Source: a virus | IMG/VR virus record: IMGVR_UViG_3300036981_000351 | Coordinates: 1-36,136 of that record | Strand: one strand, 5' to 3' | Length of the DNA stretch: 36,136 nucleotides | Shown here: positions 1,047 through 19,882 of the stretch, piece by piece | Position numbering within the stretch: position 1 is the stretch's first letter | Layout of the letters: each line of letters begins with the position of its first letter | Made by a program: the position numbers and the translations under genes | The notes under the pieces: model-generated | Seen by the model: the letters and a program-made list of their open reading frames with translations, nothing else | Told to the model about the DNA's origin: nothing | Database searches by the model: none

Positions 1047-2824
1047 CAGTAGGGCAGCGACATCAGGAAGGTGACTTTTTTGGGGTACCCATCCACGCAG
1101 ACAACCATCTCGCGTGGTTGGATATCAGCCCCAGCGTGCGGACACAGCAACGGATCCAGGCTGATCTTGTTCCCACCGTCGGCCAACGTCAGATTGTGGA
1201 GGATCTCCCGGGCCTGGGATGGCTCGTTCTTTGCAATCTGGCCAATGCCCCCATTGCCAGTATCAGCGTCGCTCGACACCTCCCCCGTTTCAGGCTCCCT
1301 ATAATGGTAGGAGAACCCTCGCTTTCTGAAACTGCTCAACAGGCTGATCAGGTCGGCGATATCGATCTGTTTGGCGGGGCCAAACGTAATCTCGGTTTCG
1401 CCGGCGTCCACCAATTCGGAGACTTGTTGCACCAGGGCATCCATGCTGGCCCATGCCGGCAGACCCCCGGAAATGCGCAGAACACTACCCATGCGCCCCG
1501 AAACCTCCAAACCCTTCAAAGTAATCTGGCCATCATACTGAAGCGGCGCCCAGGCGGCATATAGGGCGGCCGCCACGCCGACTGGCACGGGTTCGGCCGC
1601 CTCGTAAGATGACGTCCGCATGTAGGTTTTGACGTCACCCGTGCCCTTGTAATCCACCGTAGTGGCCCGAAAACTGACCGTGCGCTTGCTTTTCTTCTTG
1701 TTCCCCTGTTCGTCGTAGACCTCGCTCGTCACGTCGACGAAAAACTCCTCATCGCGGGCCTTCACAGGCATCCACGACTGCACGGACCCCTTGGTCAGTA
1801 TCTTGGGGTAATCGGAGGGCGAAGCGCCGGTGCGGCTAGGATTTGAGAACACCAGCGCCGGGCGGCCCTCCTTGTCGAGTGCCGGGATGTGCTTTATCCA
1901 CCAGTCAACGTTGCGCAGATCGGATGGAATGTCCTCCATTTCGATCTCCTGGGCGAATATCGTCTGGCGCGATCCGGCCAGTTCAATGGTGCTATGGATG
2001 GTCGCCAGTGCCTCGGGATTGCCGGCAGCGTCCTCCACCACCGTATTGTAGACGGTTTCCCTGGCGCGGGATGGTCCATCGCCATCCGGATCGGCAACAG
2101 ACCTGGTGTGGGTCTGTTCGTAACGCAGCACCACCCCGGGGATTTGTAGATCGGGCCGAGGCGTGATTTGAACGAATTCGGGGCCCGGAATGGTGACCAA
2201 AAAGGGCGTCAGGTTTGCTTTGTGGCGGCAATGGAACGTAGCCGGAATTGTGCTGTAATCGAAAAAGCAGACACAGTCCGGAGACCAGCGCAGCATCTTT
2301 ATGATCACCTCCGAACAGGTGATATCGACTTGTTCGTCGTAGGGCAGATTGATGGCTGGATCGACCAAGCCCAATTGCATCGGTGCGCCTCGGGAGATCG
2401 CCCAGGAAACGGCAGCGGCGAGCTGAGCCCCGTTGGTGATGTGCGTCGTACCGGTACCCTTGCCCAAAATCACCCTGCTCTTGGTGATGCTCACCAGTGA
2501 GTCCAAAACCGTATTCCACACCTGCCAGGTCTGCTGATACACGCACTTCTCCAGATGCCACCAGGGGCCGCTCACCTGGTAGGCGATGCCCTCCGTGTCC
2601 GGACCCCCCTCTATAGGAGTAGACGTGATCACCCCTGAAAACCACGGGGCGCCATCCTTGGTGATCGCCACAGCCTGGCCGTAGGAAAAAAGGGGGGTGG
2701 AATCAATCCGTGCCCCGGTAGCCGTGAAGCTCACGGTATCCACCGACTGGGAAACCAGTGTCCGCCGCAGACCCCCCAGACGCAGGGCGCTGAAGGTCTG
2801 CCCGTTGATCTTCCACACGCTCAT
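1046..2824 (-). CDS. Tail hub/baseplate-like protein
   Basis: A 592-residue protein following the tape measure with a 4-nt ATGA overlap. The N-terminal part (MSVWKINGQTFSALRLGGL...) and mid-region (W-F-S-G-V-I-T, then SGPWWHLEK, residues about 60..90) match the general pattern of phage tail hub proteins (gpD/gp27-like) that cap the tail tube and bind the tail tip. The middle has an acidic loop (DPDGDG). No peptidoglycan hydrolase motif is visible. The family assignment comes from pattern and gene order (tape measure, then hub). Confidence 0.6.
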   Translation of the reverse strand: MSVWKINGQTFSALRLGGLRRTLVSQSVDTVSFTATGARIDSTPLFSYGQAVAITKDGAPWFSGVITSTPIEGGPDTEGIAYQVSGPWWHLEKCVYQQTWQVWNTVLDSLVSITKSRVILGKGTGTTHITNGAQLAAAVSWAISRGAPMQLGLVDPAINLPYDEQVDITCSEVIIKMLRWSPDCVCFFDYSTIPATFHCRHKANLTPFLVTIPGPEFVQITPRPDLQIPGVVLRYEQTHTRSVADPDGDGPSRARETVYNTVVEDAAGNPEALATIHSTIELAGSRQTIFAQEIEMEDIPSDLRNVDWWIKHIPALDKEGRPALVFSNPSRTGASPSDYPKILTKGSVQSWMPVKARDEEFFVDVTSEVYDEQGNKKKSKRTVSFRATTVDYKGTGDVKTYMRTSSYEAAEPVPVGVAAALYAAWAPLQYDGQITLKGLEVSGRMGSVLRISGGLPAWASMDALVQQVSELVDAGETEITFGPAKQIDIADLISLLSSFRKRGFSYHYREPETGEVSSDADTGNGGIGQIAKNEPSQAREILHNLTLADGGNKISLDPLLCPHAGADIQPREMVVCVDGYPKKVTFLMSLPY

Positions 2825-4386
2825 GACCGGCTGGCCTTTGACTGCCGCTCCAGCGCCTGGATTCGCTGGGCAAAGGTCGCCATGTTACGCTTCGACTCGC
2901 CGAATAGTGCCAGCAACGACTCCATAGTGCCGCCGTTGTTCTTCATGTAATCGGCAATCACGTCCAGGAGTTTCGGGCCTGTCTTGCTCAGAGCCGTGGC
3001 CATGCCTGCCGCCAGATCAGCCTCACCCTTTTCCTTGGCCTGCACTGCCGGCGAATCCTTGTTCGACACCGCTGAATTGAACTCGCCAAGCTCCTTATTC
3101 GCCATCCCTGCGGCCAGTCCGCGCACCAGTCCGGCATCACTTTGCAGTGCGATCTTCCCAATGCGCCGTCCGGACTTGTCCACCTGCCCGGTCTGATATT
3201 GGCCGGCGGGAGCCTCAATCTGGTGCGAGTTATAGACGACATTCCCCTGCTCATCCTTCACCAACTGACCTGTATTGTCGCGCCGTGGCGTCTCCACCGT
3301 GACCAGGGCTTTCTTCTGCGCGTCCCAGGCCTGTTGCTTCGGCAACGCCTCTGCATCGGCTTTACGATATGCCCCTTTTTCTGTGTACTTGCTCACCTCC
3401 GCGGTAGACCTGGCCTCGCCCAGGCCGGCGGCAACGTCTTCAGCCTGCATCTGCAAATCGAAATCTCGTTTTTTGGCTTCGGCATTGAAGTCCGTCTTAC
3501 GTTGGCTAGTTTGGTCACGAAGATCACGTGCATTGGCAAGCTCTACAGGACTGTGCGGCCCACTCTTTACTCGTTCAAATTCAGCGTTGGCCTGATCTGC
3601 TTCGTCCTTAAGTTGCCGTTTCTTGTCAATCAGGGCCTGCTGTTGATCCGCAATAGTTTTCAACATCGATGCGGCATACTTCTCCTCAACGTCGGCCACC
3701 ATGGAGTTGGCGCGCGCTTTGCGCTCGGCCACGGCCTTGTCGCGATCAGGACCGGGAGTGCCCTCTGCCTCCATGCGTGCGACATCACGTGCTTCGTCCG
3801 CGCGAATTCCGACAATAGCTTTGCGTTTCTTGACCTGCTCCAAACGCTGGGAGTTACTGAGTACCTGGTCTAACTCACTTAGTTCATTCTTCAATGCTTC
3901 GAATTTCACCGAGGCCATGTCCTTAAGCGCTTGCTCGGACAGACGCGCAGCTAACTCCGCTTCTGTGAGAGGATCCTTCAGCTCCGCAACCGCCTGGCCC
4001 ATTGTGCTGAGGCGACCCGCTGCGGCGCCTCCCATCTCGGCGAGCTCTTTGAGCGCCACTACGACCATCGAGGCAATACCGAGTTTCCCCAGGGCGGCGC
4101 TCGCGCTGTTGGAAAGACCACCAACCTGCCGCAATGCGCCTGAAAGGTTGCCACTCAATGCCTGATCAAGGGCTTGGGAAATGTTCCTAGCATCCGCCAA
4201 CTGGCTACGCATCTTTGATGTCGCCGAGGAAAGCCCGTTTACTGAGGAAGTAGCGCCCATGACGCCGCCACTGACGTTTTTCGTTGTCGCGTCCAGACCA
4301 TTGATTGCCTCTTTGGCCTGCTGGATGGCCAGTTTGTCCAGCGTGGTCTTGATCAGGATTGAGAGTTCGGCAGCATCGTCACTCAT
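2821..4386 (-). CDS. Tail tape measure protein
   Basis: This 521-residue protein is predicted to be almost entirely helical, with long charged coiled coils (about residues 150..340, rich in K/E/A/R/D) and a short hydrophobic segment near residues 100..125 (SAALGKLGIASMVVVAL). The N-terminus (ILIKTTLDKLAIQQAKEAIN) is typical of tape measure starts. At about 0.15 nm per residue it would set a tail of roughly 80 nm, short for a siphophage. AAAGGGG lies at good spacing before ATG 4386, and the start overlaps the upstream stop by 4 nt. It lies far from the tail tube gene (10 kb upstream in the operon), which is unusual. Confidence 0.7.
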   Translation of the reverse strand: MSDDAAELSILIKTTLDKLAIQQAKEAINGLDATTKNVSGGVMGATSSVNGLSSATSKMRSQLADARNISQALDQALSGNLSGALRQVGGLSNSASAALGKLGIASMVVVALKELAEMGGAAAGRLSTMGQAVAELKDPLTEAELAARLSEQALKDMASVKFEALKNELSELDQVLSNSQRLEQVKKRKAIVGIRADEARDVARMEAEGTPGPDRDKAVAERKARANSMVADVEEKYAASMLKTIADQQQALIDKKRQLKDEADQANAEFERVKSGPHSPVELANARDLRDQTSQRKTDFNAEAKKRDFDLQMQAEDVAAGLGEARSTAEVSKYTEKGAYRKADAEALPKQQAWDAQKKALVTVETPRRDNTGQLVKDEQGNVVYNSHQIEAPAGQYQTGQVDKSGRRIGKIALQSDAGLVRGLAAGMANKELGEFNSAVSNKDSPAVQAKEKGEADLAAGMATALSKTGPKLLDVIADYMKNNGGTMESLLALFGESKRNMATFAQRIQALERQSKASRS

Positions 4387-5041: not shown

Positions 5042-5905
5042 TTACGCCCGAGGCTGGGGAAGGAGCCTGATGGCACCCCTGCCAATATCGATCAGGTCGC
5101 CGAATGCGCGCATTAACTCGTCGATGAACATTGCGGGCGTGTTATCGTCGAATGCTGCCTCTAATCCGTCATTAAACCCCCGCACGTCGGGCTCAATCGT
5201 GTCACCCGCCTCAATTACCCCCAGGCGCTCGGCCTCGTCGCGGCGGACGTCGCGCACGCCCATGCCGGAGCCAAAGTCGAACGGCGGATAGGGCAGGCCG
5301 AAGGCGCTGATGTCCGTCCAGATCTGCTCATCCTTGCGGGCGATCATGCGGCCCTCGAAGATCTCGCCGCCGGCGCCCTGCCAGCGCGATTGCCAATCCC
5401 TGGGCCGTTCGCGGCTTTCCTCGCGGTAAAGCTCCTGGCAGGGATAAAGGTCCAGCACCGCCTCATTCTGCCCCTGGGCATAGCCCCCGTACTCCGCCGC
5501 CATGCGCACGTTGGTATCGAAGATCACATTCCCGCGCTGTTCGGAGCCCAGATCGCGCAGCGTGCCCTGCGCGCCTTCTGGCGGCGTATAGCCCACAGCA
5601 CGCAGGGTTTTGGCGAGTTCCAGGCGGAAGGTGGCGGCATCCATGTACTCACCGGGCCGGGCGGGCCGCCGAGCGCCGGTGTCCGGATCCAGCACCGTGG
5701 ACGGCGCCACGGCGCGCTTGATCATCGCATCCATGCGGCTCAGCACGTCCAGATTCGTCACGGCTGCCGAAAAGCGGGCCCGCGCGCGAATCTCGGCCGG
5801 GATGAACTGAGTCAGCTCGCGCGAACTCGCGGCCGTGGGCATCAGGCGCTTGACCAGCTCGTAGTCCAGCGCCTCCTTAAACGGCGTTGGCTTAGAAAAA
5901 AGCAT
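5042..5905 (-). CDS. Mu gpF-like minor head protein
   Basis: This 287-residue protein has the phage head morphogenesis (gpF) signature: QRGNVIFDTNVRMAAEYGGY around residues 120..140, then RPRDWQSRW, and a C-terminal FGSGMGVRDV region. These proteins are packaged as minor head components next to the portal. In Mu the gene sits between portal and gpG. Here gpF and gpG keep their order but have moved together about 14 kb downstream, beyond the tail fibre block. The start overlaps the preceding stop (TAATG). Confidence 0.75.
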   Translation of the reverse strand: MLFSKPTPFKEALDYELVKRLMPTAASSRELTQFIPAEIRARARFSAAVTNLDVLSRMDAMIKRAVAPSTVLDPDTGARRPARPGEYMDAATFRLELAKTLRAVGYTPPEGAQGTLRDLGSEQRGNVIFDTNVRMAAEYGGYAQGQNEAVLDLYPCQELYREESRERPRDWQSRWQGAGGEIFEGRMIARKDEQIWTDISAFGLPYPPFDFGSGMGVRDVRRDEAERLGVIEAGDTIEPDVRGFNDGLEAAFDDNTPAMFIDELMRAFGDLIDIGRGAIRLLPQPRA

Positions 5906-6441
5906 TAGGGTGTCTCAGCCGCCGGCGCCGCGTTGTCCCCGTTGACGACAATCGTGTTGCCGTCCCCGGTCACGACTATCGACGTACCCCCAGGGGGCGC
6001 CGTACTTGACGCGCTGGTGCTGCCCGCGGCCGTGTCTGCGCTTGCAGCCGACGTATCGGCCCCTGAGTCCGGATCATCGGATCCGGCATGGAACAGATTG
6101 TCCAGGTCGTCATCCAATTTGCCCTGTGCAGCGCGCACGCCGGCGTAGGTCACGAGCGCGTAGGCCAGCGTTTCGCCTGGATCATGCACGATCTGCGCGC
6201 CGATGGACTTGAAAATCCCGCCGCCGGCCAGCATATCAGCACACATGCGCACGTCGCCGTTTTCGTCGACGCCGAAGCGGACTGCAGGCGGCTCCCGGGA
6301 TGGCACGGCCATCTGCACCGGCGCCACCTCTGCGGCCGCCAGCGCGGTGGGGCTGTTCGTCGGCGGCTCGTCAGCCATCGCCAACCCCACCAACGCCATA
6401 GCCAACACCGCTCCAAACAAGATTTGCTTCACGTTCTTCAC
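5905..6441 (-). CDS. Small secreted protein, unknown function
   Basis: A 178-residue protein with a clear Sec signal peptide (ILFGAVLAMALVGLAMA, cleavage before DEPP). The mature part has a central region with one cysteine, an Asp/Ser/Ala-rich low-complexity linker (about 118..150) and a C-terminal beta-hairpin-like repeat (IVVTGDGNTIVVNGDN). GTG at 6441 or GTG at 6432 could be the start; AAAGG spacing favours the second. It follows the papain-like gene and may belong to the lysis/export block. I recognise no family. Confidence 0.6.
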   Translation of the reverse strand: MKNVKQILFGAVLAMALVGLAMADEPPTNSPTALAAAEVAPVQMAVPSREPPAVRFGVDENGDVRMCADMLAGGGIFKSIGAQIVHDPGETLAYALVTYAGVRAAQGKLDDDLDNLFHAGSDDPDSGADTSAASADTAAGSTSASSTAPPGGTSIVVTGDGNTIVVNGDNAAPAAETP

Positions 6442-6475
6442 AGCCTTTCTACCGCTGTTGCGTCCATCGACACAT

Positions 6476-7111
6476 CTACTGGATCACCCACAACTCGCGA
6501 CACAATTGCCGATGCAGGCTCTCGGCCATCACGCCGATCCCTTTCCAGCCCCACTCGCGCCCCCAGGAGTTTTCGATGTATACCCAGGGGCCGGCTTCGA
6601 CATCGTGCAACTGGCCGTGCGCCACGATCACCACGGCATGAGATCCACGCGCCGCGCCGTTGGCGCTGTGATCCAGGCAGCCGGCCAGATTGGGCTGATC
6701 GAAGGCGCCCGTGACACTGTACCCAGCCAGGACCGGTTGCACAGGCAGTGCCGTGAGATTGCCGACGCTTTGCAAGCCCCGACAACCCGGCAGCCATCCG
6801 GCGCCTTTAGCCGCCTCAAACCCCTCCTGGAACGACATTCCGCCGCCCACCCGTCCCAGCCCCTGCAGCGTTTGGCGCCACAGCCAGATACAGGCGGTAT
6901 CGGGGATCTCGTGGCCATGCACAATTTCCGACCAGGATGCGAAGGAGAAGAGCACGCAGGCGGACGACTCTCCCTGGTCATCGCCTACGCGGCAGCGCGG
7001 CAACCAGGAGACATCGGCCCCAGCCCGCAGCGGCGCCTCGCCGGCGACGAGGGCTGCAGAGCCGGAAAGCAGTAAACCGCCGCCACGTCGGATGCTCCTA
7101 TCAGCGGACAT
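6476..7111 (-). CDS. Papain-like (C1-type) cysteine peptidase
   Basis: This 211-residue protein carries the full papain-type active site in order. Gln46 and Cys52 have exactly the Gln19/Cys25 spacing of papain (QGESSAC), His158 sits in GSHAVVIVAHG, and Asn181 in the ENSWGREWGWKGIG block that defines C1 peptidases. A hydrophobic stretch after basic residues at the N-terminus (about 11..25) could be a weak export signal. GAGGAGG sits 6 nt before ATG 7111, and the ATG overlaps the preceding lipoprotein gene by 11 nt. Its place directly after a coiled-coil/lipoprotein pair suggests a lysis role. It could instead be a virion maturation protease or act on host surface protein. The substrate is unknown. 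Confidence 0.75.
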   Translation of the reverse strand: MSADRSIRRGGGLLLSGSAALVAGEAPLRAGADVSWLPRCRVGDDQGESSACVLFSFASWSEIVHGHEIPDTACIWLWRQTLQGLGRVGGGMSFQEGFEAAKGAGWLPGCRGLQSVGNLTALPVQPVLAGYSVTGAFDQPNLAGCLDHSANGAARGSHAVVIVAHGQLHDVEAGPWVYIENSWGREWGWKGIGVMAESLHRQLCRELWVIQ

Positions 7112-7238
7112 TGGGCACCTCCTCAGTCACCGGATCGAGCATGGTCTGGATCGGGTAGCGGTCTGCCTGGGGACCGAGCGCACGGCAGCCGCTGGTGACG
7201 CTGATGGCCACCAAAATGATCAGGCACGCGATTCGCAT
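7101..7238 (-). CDS. Small lipoprotein, o-spanin-like candidate
   Basis: A 45-residue protein starting MRIACLIILVAISVTSGC: a type II signal peptide with a lipobox (V-T-S-G-C) predicting lipid-anchored Cys18 and a mature part of only 28 residues. AGGGGAG lies 8 nt before the ATG. It sits between a coiled-coil exported protein and the papain-like enzyme, the arrangement expected for an Rz/Rz1-type spanin pair that fuses inner and outer membranes during lysis. The mature part has two prolines, fewer than classic Rz1, so the role is an inference. Confidence 0.65.
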   Translation of the reverse strand: MRIACLIILVAISVTSGCRALGPQADRYPIQTMLDPVTEEVPNVR

Positions 7239-7239
7239 G

Positions 7240-7611
7240 TTACTTACTCCCCTGGGCCCCCGCCCTGATTTCTTCGGTTTTTTGAATCTTCCGCACCATT
7301 TTGCTGTCCGCCTGCTCCAGATTCTTGACCGCCTGCTTCAGCGATTGCAGCGCGGACTTGATATCCTGAATTTCAGCCCTTTGGGGGGCGGTCCACTGAC
7401 TGGGATCAATCGTACTCAGGTCGATCGCGTCAATTGCCTGCGACACCTGCAGCAGATCATTGGTGACGGTCGACCAGGACACGCCCGCTTTGGGGTCCTT
7501 GGCGATTGCCTTCTCCGCCATAATCGACCTCATGCGCTCGGGATTCTCAAAATTACCGCCGAACGCCACGGCCGCACCGCACAACGCGAGCAGGACAAAC
7601 ATGCGTTTCAT
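7240..7611 (-). CDS. Exported/membrane-anchored coiled-coil protein, i-spanin-like candidate
   Basis: This 123-residue protein has an N-terminal hydrophobic segment (MKRMFVLLALCGAAVAFGG) followed by a mostly helical body. The last 50 residues (DIKSALQSLKQAVKNLEQAD...) form a strong heptad-like coiled coil. An N-terminal membrane segment plus periplasmic coiled coil adjacent to a small lipoprotein is the i-spanin architecture. However, AVA-FG could be a signal peptidase I site, which would make it soluble in the periplasm. The start overlaps the stop of the LamG fibre gene by 4 nt. Confidence 0.6.
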   Translation of the reverse strand: MKRMFVLLALCGAAVAFGGNFENPERMRSIMAEKAIAKDPKAGVSWSTVTNDLLQVSQAIDAIDLSTIDPSQWTAPQRAEIQDIKSALQSLKQAVKNLEQADSKMVRKIQKTEEIRAGAQGSK

Positions 7612-10280
7612 TGGACCCCCACGCCGACGCTCCGGAACACGAAGTTCTGCACGTCATTGGTGACGACGATTCGCCACATCCGGTTAGTTCCGGCCGCAAG
7701 TCCGTTCGTAAAGCCATACCATGAACGCGTCCTGCCGCTCAGAAGCCCCTTGTCCTGCATCGGCACACGGGTCCATGTGTTGCTCCCGTCCAGCGATGCC
7801 TGCAGCGTCCAGTTGGTGAGATCACCCGCCGCAATGCCCTCCGTGAACGCCCAGGCGCTGATGGCTGTCGCGGGGGTGGTCAGCACCACGTTGCTCCCGG
7901 TGATGATGGGGGTTACCCCAACAGTGATGAGCTCAGCCTCGGTTGGCGCGGACCACATCGCGGCAGCTTCTGACAGGCTGATCACGCGATTCGTCCACAA
8001 CCGGAAGTCATCAAACTGTGCCCCTACTCCACGATACGCAGAAGCAGCAGGCGATCCCCCAAGTGCGAAAACTTTCGAGATGATAGGGTATATCGTTGTC
8101 GCAATCGCCCGATCCAGCGGCCAGTTTCCATTGGTCTGCCCATCGAGGTACGAGTACGTGCGCCCCTCGGTGATGTCGAGGACGGTGGTCAGGTGATGCC
8201 AAGTTGAGGTTCCATCGGCAAAGATGCCCATGCCAGTCCAGGGCCATCCGGCATAGCTGGTATCGGTATGGGACATCGAATTTCCGTTATATTCATACCA
8301 CACGCAGGACCAAGTCCCTGTGCCTCCGGTCGTGAGGCGATTTCCAATGACGTATGTACCATTCCCTCCGAAGTCGTCCATGCCGTCGAAACTGCAGATC
8401 GCAGTTTGCTGTCCATCAAGCAGACGAAACCAGTACGACCAAGACAATCCCTTCCGATTTTTGATGAAATCGTCGATCCCGTTGTTAGCTTGTCCGGTTT
8501 CGGGTCCAACAGTTGACACCTCCGACATGCTGAGAAAATAATTGGTTCCGTCTGCAGGATTTCCCGTGACCAAGTTCGGTATTTCCAGGGCCGCACCAAT
8601 CTTGCCTGCCACCGAACGCGGAGCCGTGTTGTTCGACGTGCTTTGTCGGTACAACATGCCATTCACCCAGCCCGTCACATTCGTTACTTTGGCGACCAAG
8701 TTGGATTCATTCAGCGGAAAGTGAAAAAGTTGGTTTCGCGCCAGATCGACATCGGCAGACAACAGAATCCCATCTGGGTTCAGGCTCCACGACACGCCGT
8801 TGGTCGTCACCATGCCAATCGGGTTCTCCCCCGCAACAGTGCGATTGAACGAATAGGAATCCGCTGACGTCAGCGGCGTGCTCAAAATGCCAGCGCGGAT
8901 CTCATCGGCCATGGCGTTGGCCAGAATGTCTGCGGCCAACGTCTTGTCCGCCAGTTCCCGATAGGTCTGCTCATTATTGATCGACGGGATTGACGCATTG
9001 ACGATTTCACGCCCCGCAAAATCCCATTTCCCCGCCGTGGTCATCTTCAAGGCCGGGTTGTACGCTTGATCGACTATCTCCACTACGCCGCCTTGGTTTG
9101 TGCCGGGCCATATCATGACGCCACCGCCCGACACCGTAATGCCGCCGTTCTGGCAATTCGTGTTGCCACCGGTCATGTAGAGCTGCTGGTTGTCTTCGTA
9201 GATCCTTCCACCGTCGTCGTTGAACACGAATTCATGGATATTGGTGATACGCGTAGCCTCAATGGTCGCCGCGGCTATGGCCTCACTCGCCCACCGTTCC
9301 GTTGCGATGGGCCACCAAATCGCACCGGACTGGTTAGTGTTCACGCAGAACTTGCCTGCCTTGGCGTTGACCTGCAGGCGCAGTTTAGAACTCACGTCAC
9401 GCCACCAGAATTCAACCGGGTGCGACGGGGCAAACGATCCCAGACTGCCGGTTTCGATGACCATGGAGGGCACCCCCTCATCGCCTCCATCCAGCACAAT
9501 GGTGTTGGTCGTGCTCCCGCCACGCCTGGTTGCCGTATCCAGCGTGTACAGCTCGTCGGTCAGGTAGGCCCCCACCGGCTGAAACGTCCCCGTGGCCCAT
9601 GATCGCAACCCATTCGTGGCAGCCACCAGATTGTTGGACACCACATTCAATCGATTCGACTCCGCCACGTCGTTGAGTCCGTTCACAGCCAATCCGTTCG
9701 TATCGCCGGATCCCCCCAGCCCAAACGGCGCCGAGGCGAGATTACTGTTTTCCACGGCTGCCCAATCGATGCTGGTCAGCGCGCGGAGCGGATTCGTGGT
9801 CGTCCCGCTGACGCTGCCAACAAGCTTGATCAGGCCGAGACCTCGCAGGGAGTTGCCGTTGGTGGTCGTGGCCGCGATCGTGTAGCCATAGGACGTGGCC
9901 GCGGCCTCCTGAGCCGGGGTCCACACCACCCGGATGCGACCCTCGGATGCACTTAACACGCTGCCGGTGGCGGCGTAATAGAGCCCCTCCGCCAGGGAGG
10001 AATCGCGATAGCGCAGCACGACGGCCACGACATTGGTCAGGGTCAGCGGCTCGCCATACGACAAATACTGGGGCTCCAGGTAGACCGTTTCGCCCCGCAC
10101 CAGTTGCAGCGCTTGCTGGGTTACACGCGACGTCTCAATCTCCCAGCGGATCGACGGGATCCCATCCGCCCTTGCAGTGGACAGGCACAGGCGCAGCAAT
10201 ACGGTCCAAAACAGCAGGCAGAATCCAACCATGCACATCCAGACGATCAACTGCTTCATCCTGGCCAAATACCTTTTCAT
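7608..10280 (-). CDS. Large exported fibre-like protein with LamG-type domain
   Basis: An 890-residue protein with an N-terminal basic/hydrophobic signal (residues 1..38, ending STARA-DG). The middle (about 180..480) has fibre-shaft-like Asn/Thr-rich repeats (TNGLAVNGLNDVAESNRLN, then GAYLTDELYTLD). Residues about 520..760 form a LamG/concanavalin-like jelly roll (FHFPLNES...GLSWSYWFRL...WHHLTTVLD...YLDGQTNG...FDDFRLWTNRVIS). A C-terminal discoidin-like beta region follows. LamG domains bind carbohydrate or protein ligands. It looks like a tail fibre by position and shaft, yet carries a Sec signal, so it may act at the host surface or in the periplasm. ATG 10280 overlaps the upstream stop. 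Confidence 0.65.
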   Translation of the reverse strand: MKRYLARMKQLIVWMCMVGFCLLFWTVLLRLCLSTARADGIPSIRWEIETSRVTQQALQLVRGETVYLEPQYLSYGEPLTLTNVVAVVLRYRDSSLAEGLYYAATGSVLSASEGRIRVVWTPAQEAAATSYGYTIAATTTNGNSLRGLGLIKLVGSVSGTTTNPLRALTSIDWAAVENSNLASAPFGLGGSGDTNGLAVNGLNDVAESNRLNVVSNNLVAATNGLRSWATGTFQPVGAYLTDELYTLDTATRRGGSTTNTIVLDGGDEGVPSMVIETGSLGSFAPSHPVEFWWRDVSSKLRLQVNAKAGKFCVNTNQSGAIWWPIATERWASEAIAAATIEATRITNIHEFVFNDDGGRIYEDNQQLYMTGGNTNCQNGGITVSGGGVMIWPGTNQGGVVEIVDQAYNPALKMTTAGKWDFAGREIVNASIPSINNEQTYRELADKTLAADILANAMADEIRAGILSTPLTSADSYSFNRTVAGENPIGMVTTNGVSWSLNPDGILLSADVDLARNQLFHFPLNESNLVAKVTNVTGWVNGMLYRQSTSNNTAPRSVAGKIGAALEIPNLVTGNPADGTNYFLSMSEVSTVGPETGQANNGIDDFIKNRKGLSWSYWFRLLDGQQTAICSFDGMDDFGGNGTYVIGNRLTTGGTGTWSCVWYEYNGNSMSHTDTSYAGWPWTGMGIFADGTSTWHHLTTVLDITEGRTYSYLDGQTNGNWPLDRAIATTIYPIISKVFALGGSPAASAYRGVGAQFDDFRLWTNRVISLSEAAAMWSAPTEAELITVGVTPIITGSNVVLTTPATAISAWAFTEGIAAGDLTNWTLQASLDGSNTWTRVPMQDKGLLSGRTRSWYGFTNGLAAGTNRMWRIVVTNDVQNFVFRSVGVGVQ

Positions 10281-11716
10281 GGAATCCTCACGCAGCGGAA
10301 CCCCGTGCAGACCCGGCGCACGTCCGGCCGCTGGAAGCCCCGGTGATACACCGTACAGCGGTCAGCGGTATTCCCAAACGAGCCACCCCGGATCACGCGG
10401 TGCGTGCCCTGCGCTGGTCCCGACCAGTTATTGGTGGCGGCCGGTGGCGCGTAGCGGTGCCAGTCCGTACACCATTCCCAGACGTTGCCGGCCATATCCA
10501 CCAGCCCCCACCCATTGGCCGGATAGACCTCCACGTAGGTCTCCCAGTAGGAGGTCGTCAGCTCACCCCCCTCGGAATCAAAATCGGGCGGCATGTCCAC
10601 CAAATACACCGCCTGAATATCGGCATGGCCGCCGGCGGGCGTGATCAGAAAAGTTAGAAATTCGGACAAATCTCCGGAGTCCTTACAGTTCATTTCACCA
10701 TTGGTCGAGGTGGTGGAATCGCCGCCCCAGGGGAAATACGCATTGGCCAAAAACCCGCGAGCGCCGCGCTCCCATTCTAGTTCAGTCGGCAGCCGATAGC
10801 CGGGAACGGAGAGCGCCGCCTGGTACAGGGTCGTGGTGGCTGATGCAGAGAACGCGTTGCGGAAAGCATTGGATAGTGCCGGATCGAGAAAATAATGCGG
10901 AGAAAGGCCCGCCATTTCGGACCGCGCGTTGCACCAGGCCGCCGCGTCAAACCAGGTGACATCGGTTACCGGGTACTCAGGCGCCAGGGTGCCCAGCTCG
11001 CCGCCCAGCCGCGGCAGGTCGTAACCGTTCGTTACGGCCCAATCGTACACCGCCAGCCAGATCGCTTCCGTCACCTCGGTCCGGTCCATGTAGTATCCGG
11101 ACAGCGTAACACTGCGGGTGGCGGAGGGCGGACCTGCCGCAAACGTTCCATCAAAGATCCACGACATACCCTCTATCGCCGCCGGCGCGTTGGTCGACAG
11201 GAGCCGCAGGCGCAACGTCCCGGGCAGGTACGCCGTCTGCTGGGTGTCCGTAGCGGAGATGTTGCCCAGGCTGTTCCAGGAGCGCACCCAGTTGGTCCCC
11301 GACAGCCAGTCGATCGCATAGCGCTGACCCGGATCCACATTGGGAAAGCTGCCCGCCGCAAAGGAAACGGCATAATCCACCTCGTCGGTGCCAATTGCCT
11401 GGACCGCCTCCGGCGTCCAGGCGTTGGTAGCGTGGGCCACCCGGAAGTAGGCCGGCAGCGCCACATAAACCAGGGCATTGCTGGATCCGAACGACCAGAA
11501 GTTGCTCCAACTGGCGCACCAGGCAAAGTCCGGGCGCGCCGGGATCACCGCCGGCGACCACTCCACCCGGTAGTAGCCGCCGGTGCTGTCGCTGCTCCAC
11601 GTCAGCGAGGACCGGTCAAAGGCTGTGATCCGCACTTCGGCGCGGCTGGACAAGGCGGATGACAGCAGGATCAGACAAAACAAGACGACTGATAGGGTCT
11701 TGGGCATCACGTTCAT
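10277..11716 (-). CDS. Exported formylglycine-enzyme-fold (C-type-lectin-like) protein
   Basis: This 479-residue protein has a signal peptide (VVLFCLILLSSALSSRA, cleavage before EV), a beta-rich N-terminal part, and from about residue 175 a complete FGE-sulfatase/SUMF1-type domain: DRTEVTEAIWLAVYDW, YPVTDVTWFDAAAWCNARS, YRLPTELEWERGARG, WGLVDMAGNVWEWCTDW, RVIRGGSF and the terminal TGFRCVRIP. The fold is shared by sulfatase-activating enzymes and by C-type-lectin tail receptor-binding proteins. In this context receptor or glycan binding is more likely than sulfatase activation, but a cysteine pair near the end (C-T-G-F-R-C) leaves an enzymatic role possible. ATG 11716 overlaps the upstream stop (CCATGA). 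Confidence 0.75.
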   Translation of the reverse strand: MNVMPKTLSVVLFCLILLSSALSSRAEVRITAFDRSSLTWSSDSTGGYYRVEWSPAVIPARPDFAWCASWSNFWSFGSSNALVYVALPAYFRVAHATNAWTPEAVQAIGTDEVDYAVSFAAGSFPNVDPGQRYAIDWLSGTNWVRSWNSLGNISATDTQQTAYLPGTLRLRLLSTNAPAAIEGMSWIFDGTFAAGPPSATRSVTLSGYYMDRTEVTEAIWLAVYDWAVTNGYDLPRLGGELGTLAPEYPVTDVTWFDAAAWCNARSEMAGLSPHYFLDPALSNAFRNAFSASATTTLYQAALSVPGYRLPTELEWERGARGFLANAYFPWGGDSTTSTNGEMNCKDSGDLSEFLTFLITPAGGHADIQAVYLVDMPPDFDSEGGELTTSYWETYVEVYPANGWGLVDMAGNVWEWCTDWHRYAPPAATNNWSGPAQGTHRVIRGGSFGNTADRCTVYHRGFQRPDVRRVCTGFRCVRIP

Positions 11717-13512
11717 GGCGACCAATCCGTATAGATTCCATTGATTGGACTGCCTTCAATCCGTCCATCTGACGACACGTCGTACAGGAATGACTGAAAC
11801 CCGGCTGGATGCATCGCCGACGTGCCGAACACGTTCCAATCCTGTTCGCACACATACGTGCGATTAGTCACCGTCAAACCCAGGACCACTGGAGCACCAG
11901 AGACTGACATATTACGAGTGGCCCACCGTTTCTGCAGCGCACCGCCAAGATCCGAAGACCGCCACCCCTGCCAGTGGATTCCAGCGGTTATATTTACCAT
12001 CGGGAACGTGACGGTCTGGGCCTGATTGAGCGTCAGCGTGATGCCGGTCGTGGCGGTCTGTCCTAACGCGATCGCATGCGGTTCGTCTTTGCGCAGCGTG
12101 GGCGAGTTGACCAAATCGGTGCCCATGACGCCATTCAGTACGCCGTTCCCATCCGTATCGTGCCAAGCCGCCCACCAGGTCTGGCCGGAATACTGTGCAG
12201 GCAGACGGAACGTGAAATTGGTGCCGCCATAGAGGTACACGTTCGGGCGCACGGTGCTCCAGAGCGGGTAGCCCTGCATGAATCGGTTATTGTAGGCTTC
12301 CACGTGTAGGGTCCCGAGGTTGTAGGTGCCGCTGTAGGTGAAGGCCAGGGTGATATCCTGGTCGGTGCTGGCGATCGTCACCGCCTGCGTGCCGGTGCCA
12401 ATGATGCCGCCACTGGCGTAGGCCGCCGTGATTTGCACGACCGTGTCCGTGCCGACGGCGCCGACCGTCAACAGGTTGGTCACAAAAGCGGTTCCGCTGG
12501 GTGGCGCCGAGACGAATCCCCAGGCGGCCAGGGTGCTCACATCATTGCTGACGCCGTCGCTGTACCGTGCCCAGGCGCTATATGCGGCGCTGCCGCCCTC
12601 GTTGATCCGATTGGTTCCCACCACGCTCACCGCGCTCAGCACGGGCGGATTGGTGTCGGCCAGCGTCACCAGGTGCGTGTCGCTACGCGTCACGCCACGG
12701 TGGCTGTATTGTGCCTGCAGGGTGACGACCGAGTCGTACCGCAGATCCCCCACTTCCAGCAGATTCTCGGTCAGGACCGTGCCCGTGGGCGGCGGGGCGA
12801 CAAACGACCACGCGGCGTCAGACGACACGTTGGAGCTGCTGCCGTCGCTGAACGTGGCCGTAAGCGTATAGGTCTCGTCGGTGTTCTCATACGCCAGGTT
12901 GGCGCCGGCAATCGTGACGCTTGCCAGCATCCCGGTCGCGGTGGGCGGCATGTAGTTGGTACTGCTGATAATGAGTTGCTCCAGGTACGCCAGGCGCGAA
13001 TCGATCGAAATCAGGTGCTGTTCCACGTTGGCTGCCGCGGGCGTATATTCACTGGGCGTGAACGCCACGGGGATTTGGGCGGCGCTGGGCGGAGCGCCCG
13101 TCGACGTGCTGTAGTAGTTATTCACCACGCTCACCGTGCCCGTCCCGGATCCGCTCAGAGCATCCAGTTCTTCGATGGCCTGCTGCACGGTGTAGCCAAA
13201 GACGTGAGACAGATTGGTATGGCTCAGGGATATTTCGCTGGCGTAAATCACGCTGGCGATGTGGCGATAGCGCGTGTCGGACTGGCTTTTCAGGTAATAA
13301 TCGTCCAGGTAGTCTGGCATCATCGTGTCAAAGGTGCCTTCGGCGATGTCGTGCATCATCGTTTCGCCTTCGTACCCCCAAAAATTCGTGGGAAACACCA
13401 CCACCCACTGGTTTGCGGTATTGGTATCGACCATGACGGTGCGACCGGCCTGGGCCGTCATGGTCCCGGCCAGGAACAGGCACAGCGCAAGATGTTTGCA
13501 AAGGCGTTTCAC
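11713..13512 (-). CDS. Exported fibre/adhesin-like protein with Ig-like repeats
   Basis: A 599-residue protein starting at GTG 13512 (GTGA overlap with the upstream stop) with a signal peptide ending TAQA-GR. Residues about 75..110 contain a tail-fibre-like stretch (YLKSQSDTRYRHI, then TVQQAIEELDALSG). Two tandem bacterial Ig-like repeats follow at about 190..380. Each runs from 'SVTIAGANLAYENTDETYTL'-type to 'DAAWSFVAPPPTGTVLTENLL'-type motifs, and the second copy is SVVGTNRINEGGSAAYSAWA...LAAWGFVSAPPSGTAFVTNLL. A C-terminal beta domain includes a DTDGNGVLNG acidic loop, likely calcium binding. Probable adhesion protein, with signal peptide and phage fibre features in the same chain. Confidence 0.65.
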   Translation of the reverse strand: MKRLCKHLALCLFLAGTMTAQAGRTVMVDTNTANQWVVVFPTNFWGYEGETMMHDIAEGTFDTMMPDYLDDYYLKSQSDTRYRHIASVIYASEISLSHTNLSHVFGYTVQQAIEELDALSGSGTGTVSVVNNYYSTSTGAPPSAAQIPVAFTPSEYTPAAANVEQHLISIDSRLAYLEQLIISSTNYMPPTATGMLASVTIAGANLAYENTDETYTLTATFSDGSSSNVSSDAAWSFVAPPPTGTVLTENLLEVGDLRYDSVVTLQAQYSHRGVTRSDTHLVTLADTNPPVLSAVSVVGTNRINEGGSAAYSAWARYSDGVSNDVSTLAAWGFVSAPPSGTAFVTNLLTVGAVGTDTVVQITAAYASGGIIGTGTQAVTIASTDQDITLAFTYSGTYNLGTLHVEAYNNRFMQGYPLWSTVRPNVYLYGGTNFTFRLPAQYSGQTWWAAWHDTDGNGVLNGVMGTDLVNSPTLRKDEPHAIALGQTATTGITLTLNQAQTVTFPMVNITAGIHWQGWRSSDLGGALQKRWATRNMSVSGAPVVLGLTVTNRTYVCEQDWNVFGTSAMHPAGFQSFLYDVSSDGRIEGSPINGIYTDWSP

Positions 13513-14120
13513 AGCGGCACCCCCGGGAGCACTTCGAGTTGCGGATTATCGACCGGTCCCCGCACGCGCACGGTATGCGTGTAGGCCGGATTGTCGGTGT
13601 TCTGGATCTGGAACGAGTAGGCCCCGGGATTGAGCGTCGCCAATCCAATCTGCGCGCCATCCTCTTCCACTTCCAGATTGGTGGCCCCGTAGGTCGTGTA
13701 GTAGCCGGCGGTGGTTTCCGCATGCACCACCAGCCAGAATTGCTTCTTGTTCTGGGTGTGGCCGGTCATGTCGAAATTGGTTTCGAGCCGCGTCAACGTA
13801 AACACCCCGTGGGCTTTTTCCGCCGTCCCGCCCGCCCATTGCTCCAGGGTCAGGCTGTTCAAGAGCGAGGCATAAGCCAGCGTCTTGCTCACCAGCGGGG
13901 CGCCCGCGCGTGCATCGCCTTCGTGAATATCCAGGCGCAAATTCGCAATGTTGGTGATGGTGTCGGTCAGCGTCTCGCCCCAGAACAGGGCAATCTCGAT
14001 CTGGACGTCCGTGCCGCGCCAGATCTTGGGCTGGGACAACTGGATCTTGCAGGCCATGGGCGTGTGGTCGAGCGCATTAGCGGCCATCCGGATGCGATAG
14101 CGCGTGAGGGTCAGACTCAT
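13509..14120 (-). CDS. Tail/baseplate-associated protein, unknown
   Basis: This 203-residue protein starts at ATG 14120, overlapping the upstream TGA (ATGA) with GGAG 8 nt before it. The sequence is beta-rich (QPKIWRGTDVQIEIALFWGE, then LRLDIHEGD). The 'granted-domain' N-terminal pattern resembles upper-baseplate or receptor-binding adaptor proteins that hold fibres. No signal peptide is present, unlike the next three large genes, so it may be the cytoplasmically assembled part linking exported fibres to the tail. The role is inferred. Confidence 0.5.
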   Translation of the reverse strand: MSLTLTRYRIRMAANALDHTPMACKIQLSQPKIWRGTDVQIEIALFWGETLTDTITNIANLRLDIHEGDARAGAPLVSKTLAYASLLNSLTLEQWAGGTAEKAHGVFTLTRLETNFDMTGHTQNKKQFWLVVHAETTAGYYTTYGATNLEVEEDGAQIGLATLNPGAYSFQIQNTDNPAYTHTVRVRGPVDNPQLEVLPGVPL

Positions 14121-14555: not shown

Positions 14556-15479
14556 TTACGCCGCGAGGGTGATGGCAAAGAGCGCGGCCAGGTCTCCGCC
14601 CGAAATCAGGCGCGACGCCTCGAAGCCGATTTCGCCCACGTTCAGGCGGGTCTTGCCCCACTGGCAGGGACCTTGCATCAGCACGGCGTCATACAGCGTG
14701 ACGATCAGTCCGCCGCTGGCCCCCGTGATCACCAGATTCTGGGTCTGCCGCATGTTGGCGCCGAGAGCAAGTCCCTGGGGACGCATGAAACCCAAGAGCG
14801 CGCCGGCCGTGATGTTGACGGGCTTGCAGGAGGCCCGCACCGTCAGGCTCTTGAATTTATGATCGATGGTGCCGATGCCATCGACGTAGCGCGGCTCCAG
14901 CCCAAGGTCGAAGGCAACCTTCCACCCATCCTCGGTGTAGAACGTCTGGCTGTTCCAGACTCCCGTATACGGCACACAGATGATCTCGCTTTCCGGAAAC
15001 ACTTCGCTCCAGGCCAGATCGGCGGCGACGTAAAGCGAACTGGCGGCGGTGCGCTCCAGTCCGTTGCCGATGACCGCGTTCAGCTTCACGCTGCCAATGG
15101 CCGTCTGGGCGGGGGACAACGTCAACTCGGGCAAGGATCCGAGCGCCGTGCTCGTGAACGTGACCTTCTTGCCGGCGGTCGAGTGGATGATGGTGGCCAC
15201 ATCGGCGGCCCCATGCATGCTCGTGTTGATCGTCGGACTGCGCAACGCGGTCGGATAGAGCGCATCGATGATGCCCTGGGTGATGCGTCCGGTGGGTTTG
15301 AAGGTGATTTCCCCGGTGGCATCCTTCAACCGCGGGCCGGCATCGCCATGGGTGGCGATCGACGGGCGCCAGGTATCCAGCTTCACGACGGCATCGATAT
15401 TGTCTTCCGCGTGCAGTTTCAGTGCTCCAAAAGTTACGGTCCCCGGACCATCGATCACGGATTGTCTGGTAATCGCCAT
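14556..15479 (-). CDS. Putative tail tube protein
   Basis: A 307-residue protein starting at ATG 15479, with AAAGGAA well placed upstream. It is beta-rich with the composition of long-tail tube proteins (GEITFKPTGRITQGIIDALY, then SSLYVAADLAWSEVFPESEI). It follows a tail-terminator candidate and connector genes, where the major tail tube gene is expected. No neighbouring sheath gene of about 400..500 residues exists, so the tail is probably non-contractile. Assignment rests on order and general pattern. Confidence 0.55.
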   Translation of the reverse strand: MAITRQSVIDGPGTVTFGALKLHAEDNIDAVVKLDTWRPSIATHGDAGPRLKDATGEITFKPTGRITQGIIDALYPTALRSPTINTSMHGAADVATIIHSTAGKKVTFTSTALGSLPELTLSPAQTAIGSVKLNAVIGNGLERTAASSLYVAADLAWSEVFPESEIICVPYTGVWNSQTFYTEDGWKVAFDLGLEPRYVDGIGTIDHKFKSLTVRASCKPVNITAGALLGFMRPQGLALGANMRQTQNLVITGASGGLIVTLYDAVLMQGPCQWGKTRLNVGEIGFEASRLISGGDLAALFAITLAA

Positions 15480-16762: not shown

Positions 16763-17197
16763 CTAATGCTGTTGGACTTCGTACTCGACCATGGTGTTGA
16801 AGTTGCTGGTGGCCAGGCCCGTATGCACGAGCAGGTCGCCAGGCTTCAGGCACGACGCGGTGAAGCTCGTCGTATTTCCGGAACCGCTCGTACACACCAC
16901 CGATCCGACCGCCTGGGTTGTCATGTAGGCCGCCCCTGCTGTGTCGGTACCGCTGATCACGCGGGTGACCGTCACGGTGTTGCCGGGAATCACCGCGCCG
17001 GTGATCCAGATGTTCTTCAACAGGATTGCCGACAGGGGGACGTTGTTCGTCCACCGGGCGACGCCGGCGGTCGCGCTCGTGATGACCGTCCGGTCATACA
17101 CCGAACCGGCCTGTGCCGCCTTCGGTGCCGCAAGCACGAGGCTCAGCCCCACGCCCGCGATCGCCAACAAACTCGGAATAAAAGAGAACCGCTTCAT
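16763..17197 (-). CDS. Small exported beta-rich protein within the head genes
   Basis: A 144-residue protein starting at ATG 17197 (AAGGA 8 nt upstream). It has a textbook signal peptide (residues 1..30, ending KAAQA-GS). The mature part is Thr/Ser/Val-rich and beta-like, with two cysteines (SVVCTSGS and TASCLKPG) that could form a disulfide. It stands between major capsid and connector genes, where Mu encodes non-exported gp35-like proteins. A secreted protein here is unusual. Possibilities are a capsid decoration acquired from a secreted host protein, or a periplasmic effector expressed late. Confidence 0.65.
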   Translation of the reverse strand: MKRFSFIPSLLAIAGVGLSLVLAAPKAAQAGSVYDRTVITSATAGVARWTNNVPLSAILLKNIWITGAVIPGNTVTVTRVISGTDTAGAAYMTTQAVGSVVCTSGSGNTTSFTASCLKPGDLLVHTGLATSNFNTMVEYEVQQH

Positions 17198-17310: not shown

Positions 17311-18261
17311 CTAGTCGTTGGCGCCGGCCACGTCGATGCGCTTGGCGAGCCCGCTGGACACGACCTGGGGGTCAACCGTCCAATCGTTCTCGAACCAGTC
17401 CAAATGCGGCTCTTCGCGGTACTGGTACACGTCCGTGAAGAGGTTCGCATTCGGGGCGAACGACTTCATGAACGACGGGTTGTAGGCGTCCGCCAGCGGG
17501 CTGGAGTTGAACACCAGCACGGAACCTCCGAGGATTCCAACCTTGGTCGCGCCCGTGTTACCCAGGCCGCCGCCGGTCAGCACCGAGGTATCCACGATTT
17601 CGACCTTCATGGACGGGTTCACCAGCATGCGCTGGATGCGGTCCGGACTCACCTGCGCCACGTCCGCGCCGGGCATGCGCCCCGCGATCTTCGGGTGGCC
17701 GGAGAACACGGCCCAGGCCCCAAAGTCGAACATGACCGTGTTGGGCACCATCCCGGTGGCCTTCCACACGGCCTTGATCGCGTTGTTCAGCTCAACGATC
17801 GGGTCGACGTTGGGGTTGCCCCACGCCCCGGCGCCGGCCGTTGCGGAAACGGCGGCCTTGGCGGCCGTCACCACGGCATTCAGGTACGCCACCGCGCAGT
17901 TGATCTGCAGCGTGCGGACCTTGGCCTGCTCCAGGAGAGCCGTGGCCTCGCCGGCGTTGGTGCGCTCCGTGCCATCAACCGAGATGCGCAACCCGTAGGG
18001 CTTCGCATTGTAGTTGGCGGTGGTCGAGAGCAACGTGATGGCGTTGGCATGCCCGCCAATCGCCCGTGCGGCCACCAGCGCCGCATAGGCCTTGAAGGCC
18101 TGCGTCTCGTCGAACTTGTTGAAGAGCCCGCTGGTGCCGCCGGTCGGTACAACGGGCGAGATCAGATTGGCAATGCGCAAAACAGCGGCCAGATCCTGCA
18201 TCAGGCCGGCGGCGTACTGCGTCAGATCCGCGCGTGCGATCACATTATTCGGCTTACCCAT
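17311..18261 (-). CDS. Major capsid protein
   Basis: This 316-residue protein is preceded by AAGGAGA at ideal spacing. It lies immediately after protease/scaffold and decoration genes, the invariant place of a Mu-like major head subunit. Sequence features fit an HK97-type fold: a helical N-arm (residues 1..35), a long spine-helix-like region (ALLEQAKVRTLQINCAVAYL, about 108..127) and a C-terminal A-domain with GGSVLVFNSSPLADAY and DVYQYREEPHLDWFEND strands. The NTVMFDFGAWAVFSGHPKI segment is typical of this capsid family. Neighbouring hairpin and strong ribosome site fit high expression. Confidence 0.8.
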   Translation of the reverse strand: MGKPNNVIARADLTQYAAGLMQDLAAVLRIANLISPVVPTGGTSGLFNKFDETQAFKAYAALVAARAIGGHANAITLLSTTANYNAKPYGLRISVDGTERTNAGEATALLEQAKVRTLQINCAVAYLNAVVTAAKAAVSATAGAGAWGNPNVDPIVELNNAIKAVWKATGMVPNTVMFDFGAWAVFSGHPKIAGRMPGADVAQVSPDRIQRMLVNPSMKVEIVDTSVLTGGGLGNTGATKVGILGGSVLVFNSSPLADAYNPSFMKSFAPNANLFTDVYQYREEPHLDWFENDWTVDPQVVSSGLAKRIDVAGAND

Positions 18262-18745: not shown

Positions 18746-19882
18746 CTACTTCCCGGCCGTCGCCTCCTCCCGGAAGAGCTCCGGCTTCAGCGAAGCAGCC
18801 ACCGACCAGGCTGCCGCGTTCGTCGCCAGTCGGTTTTCTGATTTCACCTTGGCGATGAAGTCTTCGCGCTCTCGGTTGCGCGTCGTGATGCGCTCCTGGT
18901 CCGTATCCGTCACCCCGCTCGCCGGCGGCTTGCCGTCAGCGCGGTTCAAGGTTCGGACCGGGGCGGGCTCCGCCGCCGGCTTCAGGCCGGCGAACAGGGT
19001 CTCGGTGCCCTTGCGGTCGGCAATGAACTGCGCCCGCACCGCCGCCGGATTCAGAATCACGGCCTTGTTGCGCGACACGAACGTGTCGGCATCGGCTTCG
19101 AGCTGCGCGGTCTCGATCGACAGCAGTTTGCCCTCGGCGGCCGTCGCCCGGCACATGGCCGCGGTCTTTTCTTCGCCGGCCGTCTTGCCGGCCTTCAGCG
19201 CGCCTTCCAGGGCCGCCACCACGCCGTCTTCGTCTGCGCCATCCGCCAGGGCGATTCCGTTCGCCGTGCAGAGCGCCTTCAGTTTCTCCAGCATTGTCGT
19301 CTCCTCCGTATTGCCGGCCCGGTTCATGGCCGGCACCAGTGTTTTGAACTGCGGCTTGTTCGTGAGTCCGAAATCGTCGATCGCCACCATGCGCAGGCGC
19401 TCGCCGGGTTTCGGGGGATTGGCTTTGCCCAGCGGGCTATCGTCCAGACGCGCCAGGGCAAATACGGGTGAAAAGAACTTGTAGACGCTGCCGATCACGC
19501 TTTCGCCCAAAGAAGTCTTCTCGACCGCCACATAGATCCCGCGCTCGCGTTCCGGGATGGCCGGGTCGTTGCGAACTTCCAATTTGCGGGCCCACCCGAA
19601 GGCTTCACTGTTTCCGTCCGATTCCTGGGCGTAGTGTTCCCGACCCACCAGGTAACCCGGCCACAACGGGTCGGCGCTTTTTTTGCGGAAGTCCGCCTCG
19701 ATCCGCGCCATCGCCACGGTGTCCATCACCTGGATGATCGGCACCTCCGTCCCGTCGCGCATGATCGCCTTGCCGGGGAGCTCGCCGATTGGGGTCACGT
19801 GGTACCAGCCATCCGTACCGCTACCCACCGGCCGGCTTTCGTCCATCCAACCCCGGTTCTGAGCTAAAATCACCTCGCGCAT
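18746..19882 (-). CDS. Mu gpI-like capsid protease/scaffold
   Basis: This 378-residue protein starts at ATG 19882 (GGGGGGA 6..7 nt upstream; ATG 19897 is possible). Residues 1..190 resemble the Mu I-type head maturation protease: GWYHVTPIGELPGKAI, MDTVAMARIEADFRKK, PLWPGYLVGREH (candidate His). A helical, charged C-terminal half (about 220..378) serves as scaffold, with a possible internal re-start at MLEKLKALCTANGIALADGA that would yield a separate Z-like scaffold as in Mu. That internal ATG (19293) is preceded by a GGAGG-containing stretch. Confidence 0.8.
   Translation of the reverse strand: MREVILAQNRGWMDESRPVGSGTDGWYHVTPIGELPGKAIMRDGTEVPIIQVMDTVAMARIEADFRKKSADPLWPGYLVGREHYAQESDGNSEAFGWARKLEVRNDPAIPERERGIYVAVEKTSLGESVIGSVYKFFSPVFALARLDDSPLGKANPPKPGERLRMVAIDDFGLTNKPQFKTLVPAMNRAGNTEETTMLEKLKALCTANGIALADGADEDGVVAALEGALKAGKTAGEEKTAAMCRATAAEGKLLSIETAQLEADADTFVSRNKAVILNPAAVRAQFIADRKGTETLFAGLKPAAEPAPVRTLNRADGKPPASGVTDTDQERITTRNREREDFIAKVKSENRLATNAAAWSVAASLKPELFREEATAGK

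Follow-up and report, generated by a model that had tools for sequence, protein, structure and literature searches.

Textbook tailed phages complete their assembly in the cytoplasm, and the tail fibres of T4 are normally attached there. Precedents for phage-encoded envelope proteins are Llp of T5 and Lom and Bor of lambda. T4 fibres can also attach to fibreless particles (PMC3004832), and exported phage endolysins, such as fOg44 Lys44 and the signal-anchor-release (SAR) endolysins, are known (PMC6116005). This study analyzed the 36,136 bases of IMG/VR record IMGVR_UViG_3300036981_000351 (the whole of this stretch is hereafter called the window), a Mu-like phage infecting Verrucomicrobiota-type bacteria, in which the large proteins encoded at the tail-fibre position begin with predicted Sec signal peptides. 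We regard it as an even call whether the genes of this block specify virion tail fibres that carry cleavable Sec signal peptides and are made within the late operon.

The window resembles Mu-like phages in its head and packaging module, which includes Portal_Mu (PF06074, 1.5e-26), the Mu-like_Pro head protease (PF10123, 2.4e-9), and a MuF-like protein, whereas its tail gene order is siphophage-like, no sheath was recognised in its tail region, and the S and S' fibres of Mu carry no signal. The fibres of T4 are similar in their ability to join otherwise complete particles (PMC3004832) but, unlike the window fibres, have no signal peptides. Lom, Bor, and Llp are likewise phage-encoded and exported, and lom adjoins fibre genes in the lambda annotation; these are, however, lysogenic-conversion or exclusion proteins without the fibre-docking domains found in the window. 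Exported endolysins share the passage of a tailed-phage late protein through the host Sec system (PMC6116005), but they are lysis enzymes rather than fibre-type, virion structural proteins.

Predicted signal peptides of the fibre-type proteins

The virion operon lies on the minus strand and spans ~24 kb down to 0.6 kb. Three successive genes on this strand encode an immunoglobulin (Ig)-repeat tail protein of 599 aa (11713-13512), a protein of 479 aa with a formylglycine-generating enzyme (FGE)/C-type-lectin fold (10277-11716), and a LamG-like fibre of 890 aa (7608-10280). The signal peptides that a preliminary description had assigned to these proteins were present at all three N-termini, which read MKRLCKHLALCLFLAGTMTAQA followed by GR after the inferred cut in the Ig protein, MNVMPKTLSVVLFCLILLSSALSSRA followed by EV in the FGE-fold protein, and ...LLRLCLSTARA followed by DG in the LamG-like protein; the mature chains would begin with GRTVMV, EVRITA, and DGIPSI, respectively. 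The fibre N-termini comprise a basic n-region, a hydrophobic core of 8-13 residues, and a small-x-small cut site, the features expected of a Sec signal, and by eye almost every one has Ala or Gly immediately before the inferred cut. The signal of the Ig protein was called by the rule described below; that of the LamG-like protein was judged by eye, the rule having failed when the protein was read from its second in-frame start.

Signals were called by using a home-made rule that combines a basic start, a hydrophobic core, and a small-residue cut site. The rule was positive on lambda Lom, Bor, and Rz1 and negative on Mu S and S', lambda J, the lambda side-tail-fibre (stf) pieces, and the late tail/virion proteins of D3112; the departure from classical phages, the fibres of which had been described as made without signals, was thus borne out. 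It was also positive on the lambda Rz membrane anchor, and therefore cannot by itself separate a cleaved signal from an anchor. When applied to the products of the window, the rule called 8 of the 26 virion genes, compared with 3/416 genes of conserved virion families in relatives (binomial p ~1e-11), and in the fibre slot it called 21 of 28 large open reading frames (ORFs) against the same 3/416 (Fisher 5e-27), with three more called from an alternative in-frame start, these p-values being only indicative because related phages were treated as independent. The rule was passed by 26/27 real N-termini and by 12.7% of shuffled ones.

The start of each gene overlaps the preceding stop by 4 bp (GTGA or ATGA) at 13509-14120, 11713-13512, 10277-11716, 7608-10280, and 7240-7611; the Ig protein starts with GTG in a GTGA overlap and the FGE-fold protein with ATG in an ATGA overlap, ATG 11716 being the better start of the latter. 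Because these overlaps are exactly 4 bp, gene-calling errors are an unlikely source of the N-termini in the window, and because the fibre genes are chained in this manner within the late operon, separate promoters would have no space. An artefact, in which wrong starts or a loose caller lend ordinary fibres the look of a signal, is largely refuted and now has only a very slight probability. It could draw on the home-made nature of the caller, on a few capsid calls that may be start errors (such as that in L041; related phages are given here by L numbers), and on the call of the lambda Rz anchor; against it stand the overlapping starts, for which a start-codon artefact was rejected, the low rate of calls among other virion genes, the behaviour of the controls, and the repetition of the trait in ~20 divergent phages. 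Judging from the N-termini, the signals on the fibre-type proteins are almost certainly real, and it is very likely that they are cut and that the fibres are exported.

The exported run proved longer than first described. Its listed members hold, and the signal-type N-termini reported for a 178-aa protein, a coiled-coil protein, and a 45-aa lipoprotein were found as described; the run also takes in a 144-aa protein, a papain-like protein, and, in the early region on the plus strand, a signal-called protein with an fn3 domain (33441-33833; PF00041 5.9e-5, just under the Pfam cut-off). The 144-aa protein (16763-17197, minus strand) is encoded directly after the major capsid gene and received a signal call. 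It has no PHROG match, has a 31% homologue in the Kiritimatiellae prophage L050, and is possibly a small surface appendage; L141 and L031 carry signal-bearing proteins at the same position, with fibre-type motifs in that of L031.

Predicted folds of the exported proteins and the docking domain

Of the domain labels originally given, FGE and Ig are supported by profiles, whereas LamG is a motif reading without a Pfam match. The Ig protein matched the tail protein family phrog_14098 (4.7e-23), resembles tail proteins from Erwinia jumbo phages, and has a 42% homologue in a Kiritimatiellae metagenome-assembled genome (MAG). The FGE-fold protein matched PF03781 (1.4e-38) and has a 41% signal-bearing homologue in L050. 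Neither the FGE-fold protein nor the LamG-like protein has a match of its own to fibre families, and sub-ranges of the LamG-like and Ig proteins gave nothing above the cut-off in Pfam. In true FGE enzymes, two catalytic cysteines lie five residues from each other close to the C-terminus. The corresponding stretch of the window protein is DRCTVYHRG, and its L050 homologue lacks a cysteine there; because the pair is missing, the FGE-fold protein is probably lectin-like and not catalytic. A diversity-generating retroelement acting on the FGE-fold gene was rejected because the 3' end of this gene is not duplicated anywhere in the window. Apparent retroelements of this type, with a reverse transcriptase ORF and a template-like repeat, were seen in L038 (1732-4455) and L146 (9712-12744), where the target is C-type-lectin-like and has no signal.

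The gene preceding the Ig protein encodes a predicted docking protein of 203 aa (13509-14120, minus strand) that has a BppU-N-like beta-sandwich and no signal peptide. Its AlphaFold model (predicted local distance difference test score, pLDDT, 67) was compared with known structures by VIA-align, and the top rows were phage fibre-docking or neck domains: 9c39_J (Z 10.7, root-mean-square deviation (rmsd) 4.6 over 115), 9mt4_H (Z 10.6, rmsd 3.2 over 112), 4v96_AL (Z 9.0), 6v8i_AJ (Z 8.8), and 3uh8 (Z 8.3, rmsd 3.2 over 111), the last being the N-terminal domain of TP901-1 ORF48 (BppU). A similar domain is predicted within residues 36-160 of the LamG-like protein. The model of its residues 36-190 (pLDDT 64) had phage tail or neck domains in the top nine VIA rows, including 4v96_AL (Z 9.3, rmsd 3.5 over 115), 3uh8 (Z 9.2, rmsd 2.5 over 105), and 6v8i_AJ (Z 8.7), whereas unrelated Ig folds ranked below, at Z 6.1 or less. 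No BppU-type Pfam profile matched 13509-14120 or 7608-10280.

A search with a profile built from the free-standing docking proteins located this domain N-terminally in the non-exported fibres of L054, L058, and L059 and, in a 1169-aa fibre of L148, at residues 24-173 directly behind the signal (1.5e-13). The docking domain is thus found as a free-standing protein, at the head of fibres that lack a signal, and in a fibre where a signal precedes it. We regard this distribution as the strongest indication that the exported proteins are destined for virions. The window shares the predicted fold and the combination of docking domain and fibre with siphophage docking proteins (TP901-1 BppU and the 80alpha upper fibre protein); BppU-type fibres are, however, cytoplasmic, whereas in the window the domain lies behind a signal peptide or alone beside exported fibres.

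The same evidence bears on the possibility that the exported proteins never join virions and instead are receptor decoys or blockers, secreted or freed at lysis, or superinfection-exclusion or adhesin proteins. The export signals and the precedents of T5 Llp and lambda Lom and Bor agree with such a role, which we nevertheless consider unlikely because a BppU-like docking fold or tail-fibre repeats follow the signals, the genes are coupled to tail genes, and anchors are lacking. Neither a hydrophobic C-terminus, nor a lipobox, nor an obvious surface-sorting tail is present on the exported fibres, apart from one ambiguous lipobox in the relative L046; lacking the first two, they would be expected to remain soluble in the periplasm if Sec alone exports them. 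Display on the surface of the lysogen was disfavoured because anchors and promoter room are missing and the genes are chained in the late operon. On this predicted architecture, the exported proteins are in all probability virion fibres.

The fibre slot in related phages

A terminase search of genome contigs yielded 16 relatives, all of them in Verrucomicrobiota or Kiritimatiellae MAGs. A terminase search of viral contigs gave 351 relatives, of which the best 80 were taken, and the virion region was read in ~53 records; the capsid and FGE proteins found no relatives when used as queries against the viral contigs. Sixteen phages, the window included, have a 14556-family gene followed by a 14117-family gene, the fibre slot, and the tape measure, and in 14 of them the large slot protein bears a signal (the window, L036, L038, L046, L050, L051, L141, L147, L148, L150, L152, L153, L174, and L177), the signal of L177 requiring a start upstream of the called one; L054 and L170 have the same order and no signal on the slot protein. 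Signals on the fibre-slot protein recur in relatives, in the same place but with differing protein bodies. Signal-bearing fibre-like proteins were also found in other gene orders (L034, L041, L048, L143, L151, L157, L167, and L169). By our own reading, 22 of the 53 sampled records have a signal-bearing fibre; the trait is common, not universal, in the sampled relatives.

Several of the signal-bearing slot proteins in relatives read plainly as tail fibres or spikes. A protein of L048 matched phrog_35419 and phrog_24919, both "tail fiber protein", from residue 38-41, behind the signal, as well as a pectin-lyase family; a signal-bearing protein of L151 contains GGTNATTAAAARTNLGV repeats of the common tail-fibre type, and an 868-aa protein of L151 has LamG and beta-helix domains, as in a spike. 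Two such prophages lie in the Kiritimatiellae MAG STCSWMC_75: one has the Ig and FGE proteins of the window at ~40% identity, in the same order and with the same signals, and the slot of the other is occupied by a different group of signal-bearing proteins. A search for named-phage relatives of the L048 and L150 fibres, the N-termini of which might lack signals, returned none or one short internal match. In addition, L151 (11144-11644, minus strand) and L172 (8520-9449, minus strand) encode cement- or decoration-like proteins with signal peptides; the match of the former to Phage_cement_2 is weak (E 0.0016, below the cut-off).

Proposed assembly outside the cytoplasm and its alternatives

The signals, the gene overlaps with tail genes, the conserved arrangement, and the docking and tail-fibre folds behind the signals lead us to interpret the block as exported virion fibres. 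Among the three fates proposed earlier (display on the lysogen, attachment to virions outside the cell, and secretion as adhesins or decoys), attachment outside the cytoplasm agrees best with the BppU-like fold at the start of the LamG-like protein and with the L148 protein, which joins a signal, a docking domain, and a fibre. That the fibres are mounted there we infer with a confidence no better than balanced. In such a route, the fibres would fold and then wait in the periplasm while DNA-filled particles with fibreless tails were built in the cytoplasm; the holin would open the inner membrane, and the particles would meet mature fibres before or as the outer membrane fails. Docking could occur through the BppU-like domain of the fibres themselves, or the 203-aa BppU-like protein, made in the cytoplasm and by then part of the tail, could receive them. 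Late mounting of this type is feasible because T4 fibres can join fibreless particles (PMC3004832).

The main rival is membrane-associated assembly, in which the signals are membrane anchors that hold the fibres, together with the capsid and cement-like proteins of some relatives, at the inner membrane during assembly, the N-terminus being later trimmed or kept. We judge this improbable, about as much so as a role away from virions. In its favour, hydrophobic N-termini occur on the capsid proteins of L036, L048, L144, L147, L148, L152, L165, L169, L174, and L177, where they often comprise two stretches with no clear AxA site before the delta-type coil, other relatives being without them, and on decoration-like proteins of L039, L145, L160, L176, and L046. 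The fibre N-termini differ, with one short hydrophobic run and then a small-residue cut site that has Ala or Gly just ahead of the cut, and the capsid protein of the window itself (17311-18261, minus strand; phrog_1005, E 5.9e-26) has neither a signal nor a hydrophobic segment at its N-terminus.

Several points weigh against export and mounting outside the cytoplasm. A capsid is not easily exported, so the capsid N-terminal hydrophobicity in some relatives may sometimes serve membrane-associated assembly; the N-terminus of the LamG-like protein is atypical, being long and with two hydrophobic runs; the caller is home-made and is not SignalP; the AlphaFold models were built on 3-4 sequences and are of modest confidence; and ~30 of the 53 sampled records have no signal-bearing fibre. 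For the clade as a whole, it is conceivable, at somewhat less than an even chance, that these tailed phages of Verrucomicrobiota complete their particles outside the cytoplasm, with fibres and, in some members, cement-like or head-appendage proteins being exported by Sec and, at lysis, mounted out of the periplasm.

No report of signal peptides on the tail fibres of tailed phages was found in an exact-word search of open-licence PubMed Central papers. The parts (fibres, BppU-type docking, and Sec signals) are known, and their combination is not described in the papers searched; if extracytoplasmic mounting were shown, it would possibly represent a categorically new assembly route. The work on chronic phages of Lentisphaerae (PMC11361711), taken as a lead on non-lytic release in this bacterial group, describes structures of filamentous phages and makes no mention of signal peptides. 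If our interpretation is correct, tailed-phage assembly would be split across two compartments, and the last assembly step of widespread phages could occur in another compartment. Export could allow folding by periplasmic chaperones, prevent premature ligand binding, or block the receptors of the dying cell. Annotation pipelines would then overlook genuine virion proteins wherever they class signal-bearing prophage genes as cargo or host adhesins.

Small neighbouring genes

Downstream of the LamG-like gene, the minus strand encodes a 123-aa coiled-coil protein with a signal or anchor start (7240-7611; weak coiled-coil matches in Pfam and PHROGs), the 45-aa lipoprotein (7101-7238; lipobox SVTSGC), a papain-like cysteine protease (6476-7111; PF00112 7.8e-5, phrog_16701 peptidase 2.6e-9), and the 178-aa protein (5905-6441; signal call, GTG start at 6441 or 6432), which had no family match in Pfam or PHROGs. 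The papain-like protein has an N-terminus with RR and a weakly hydrophobic segment, resembling a twin-arginine translocation (Tat) or SAR type, and a readable triad of C, H, and N.

These neighbours belong to the exported run as described, but for the coiled-coil, lipoprotein, and papain-like genes a possible spanin/lysis or envelope group is a better reading than fibres. A coiled coil followed by a short lipoprotein fits the architecture of a two-component spanin, in which 7240-7611 is possibly the inner-membrane spanin and 7101-7238 is a candidate Rz1-like outer-membrane spanin, the family match being weak (phrog_8971, Rz-like spanin, E 0.049). It is a toss-up whether 5905-7611 forms a separate lysis or envelope cassette, with a spanin pair and an exported papain-like endolysin, an arrangement that would complement the export of virion fibres. 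The Rz-like match, the adjoining coiled coil and lipoprotein, a 45-aa lipoprotein after the fibre genes of L152, and the existence of exported endolysins (PMC6116005) speak for the cassette; the weakness of the family matches and the lack of any for the 178-aa protein speak against it. As lysis genes, these neighbours would be ordinary. Near the papain-like slot of L051 (2697-3554, minus strand), a 285-aa lipoprotein appears caspase-like by eye and has no Pfam match.

Other genes of the window

The exported block is flanked by the MuF-like minor head protein (5042-5905, minus strand; phrog_220, 1.5e-7). The presumed tape measure protein (2821-4386, minus strand) was assigned by position and by a 24% match from an Akkermansia phage protein at the same place (E 3e-4), and the gene at 14556-15479 is presumed from position alone to encode the tail tube. 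Between the portal and the protease, a 228-aa protein (19870-20556, minus strand) resembles by eye a permuted NlpC/P60 (YiiX-like) hydrolase, with no Pfam match. The ORF at 29044-31254, considered for a MuA-type transposase, gave no Pfam match and is followed by an AAA/TniB-like partner gene at 31283-32389. The ORF at 35594-36106 on the plus strand resembles by eye a host periplasmic protein of the DUF2092 type, and the prophage may end upstream of it.

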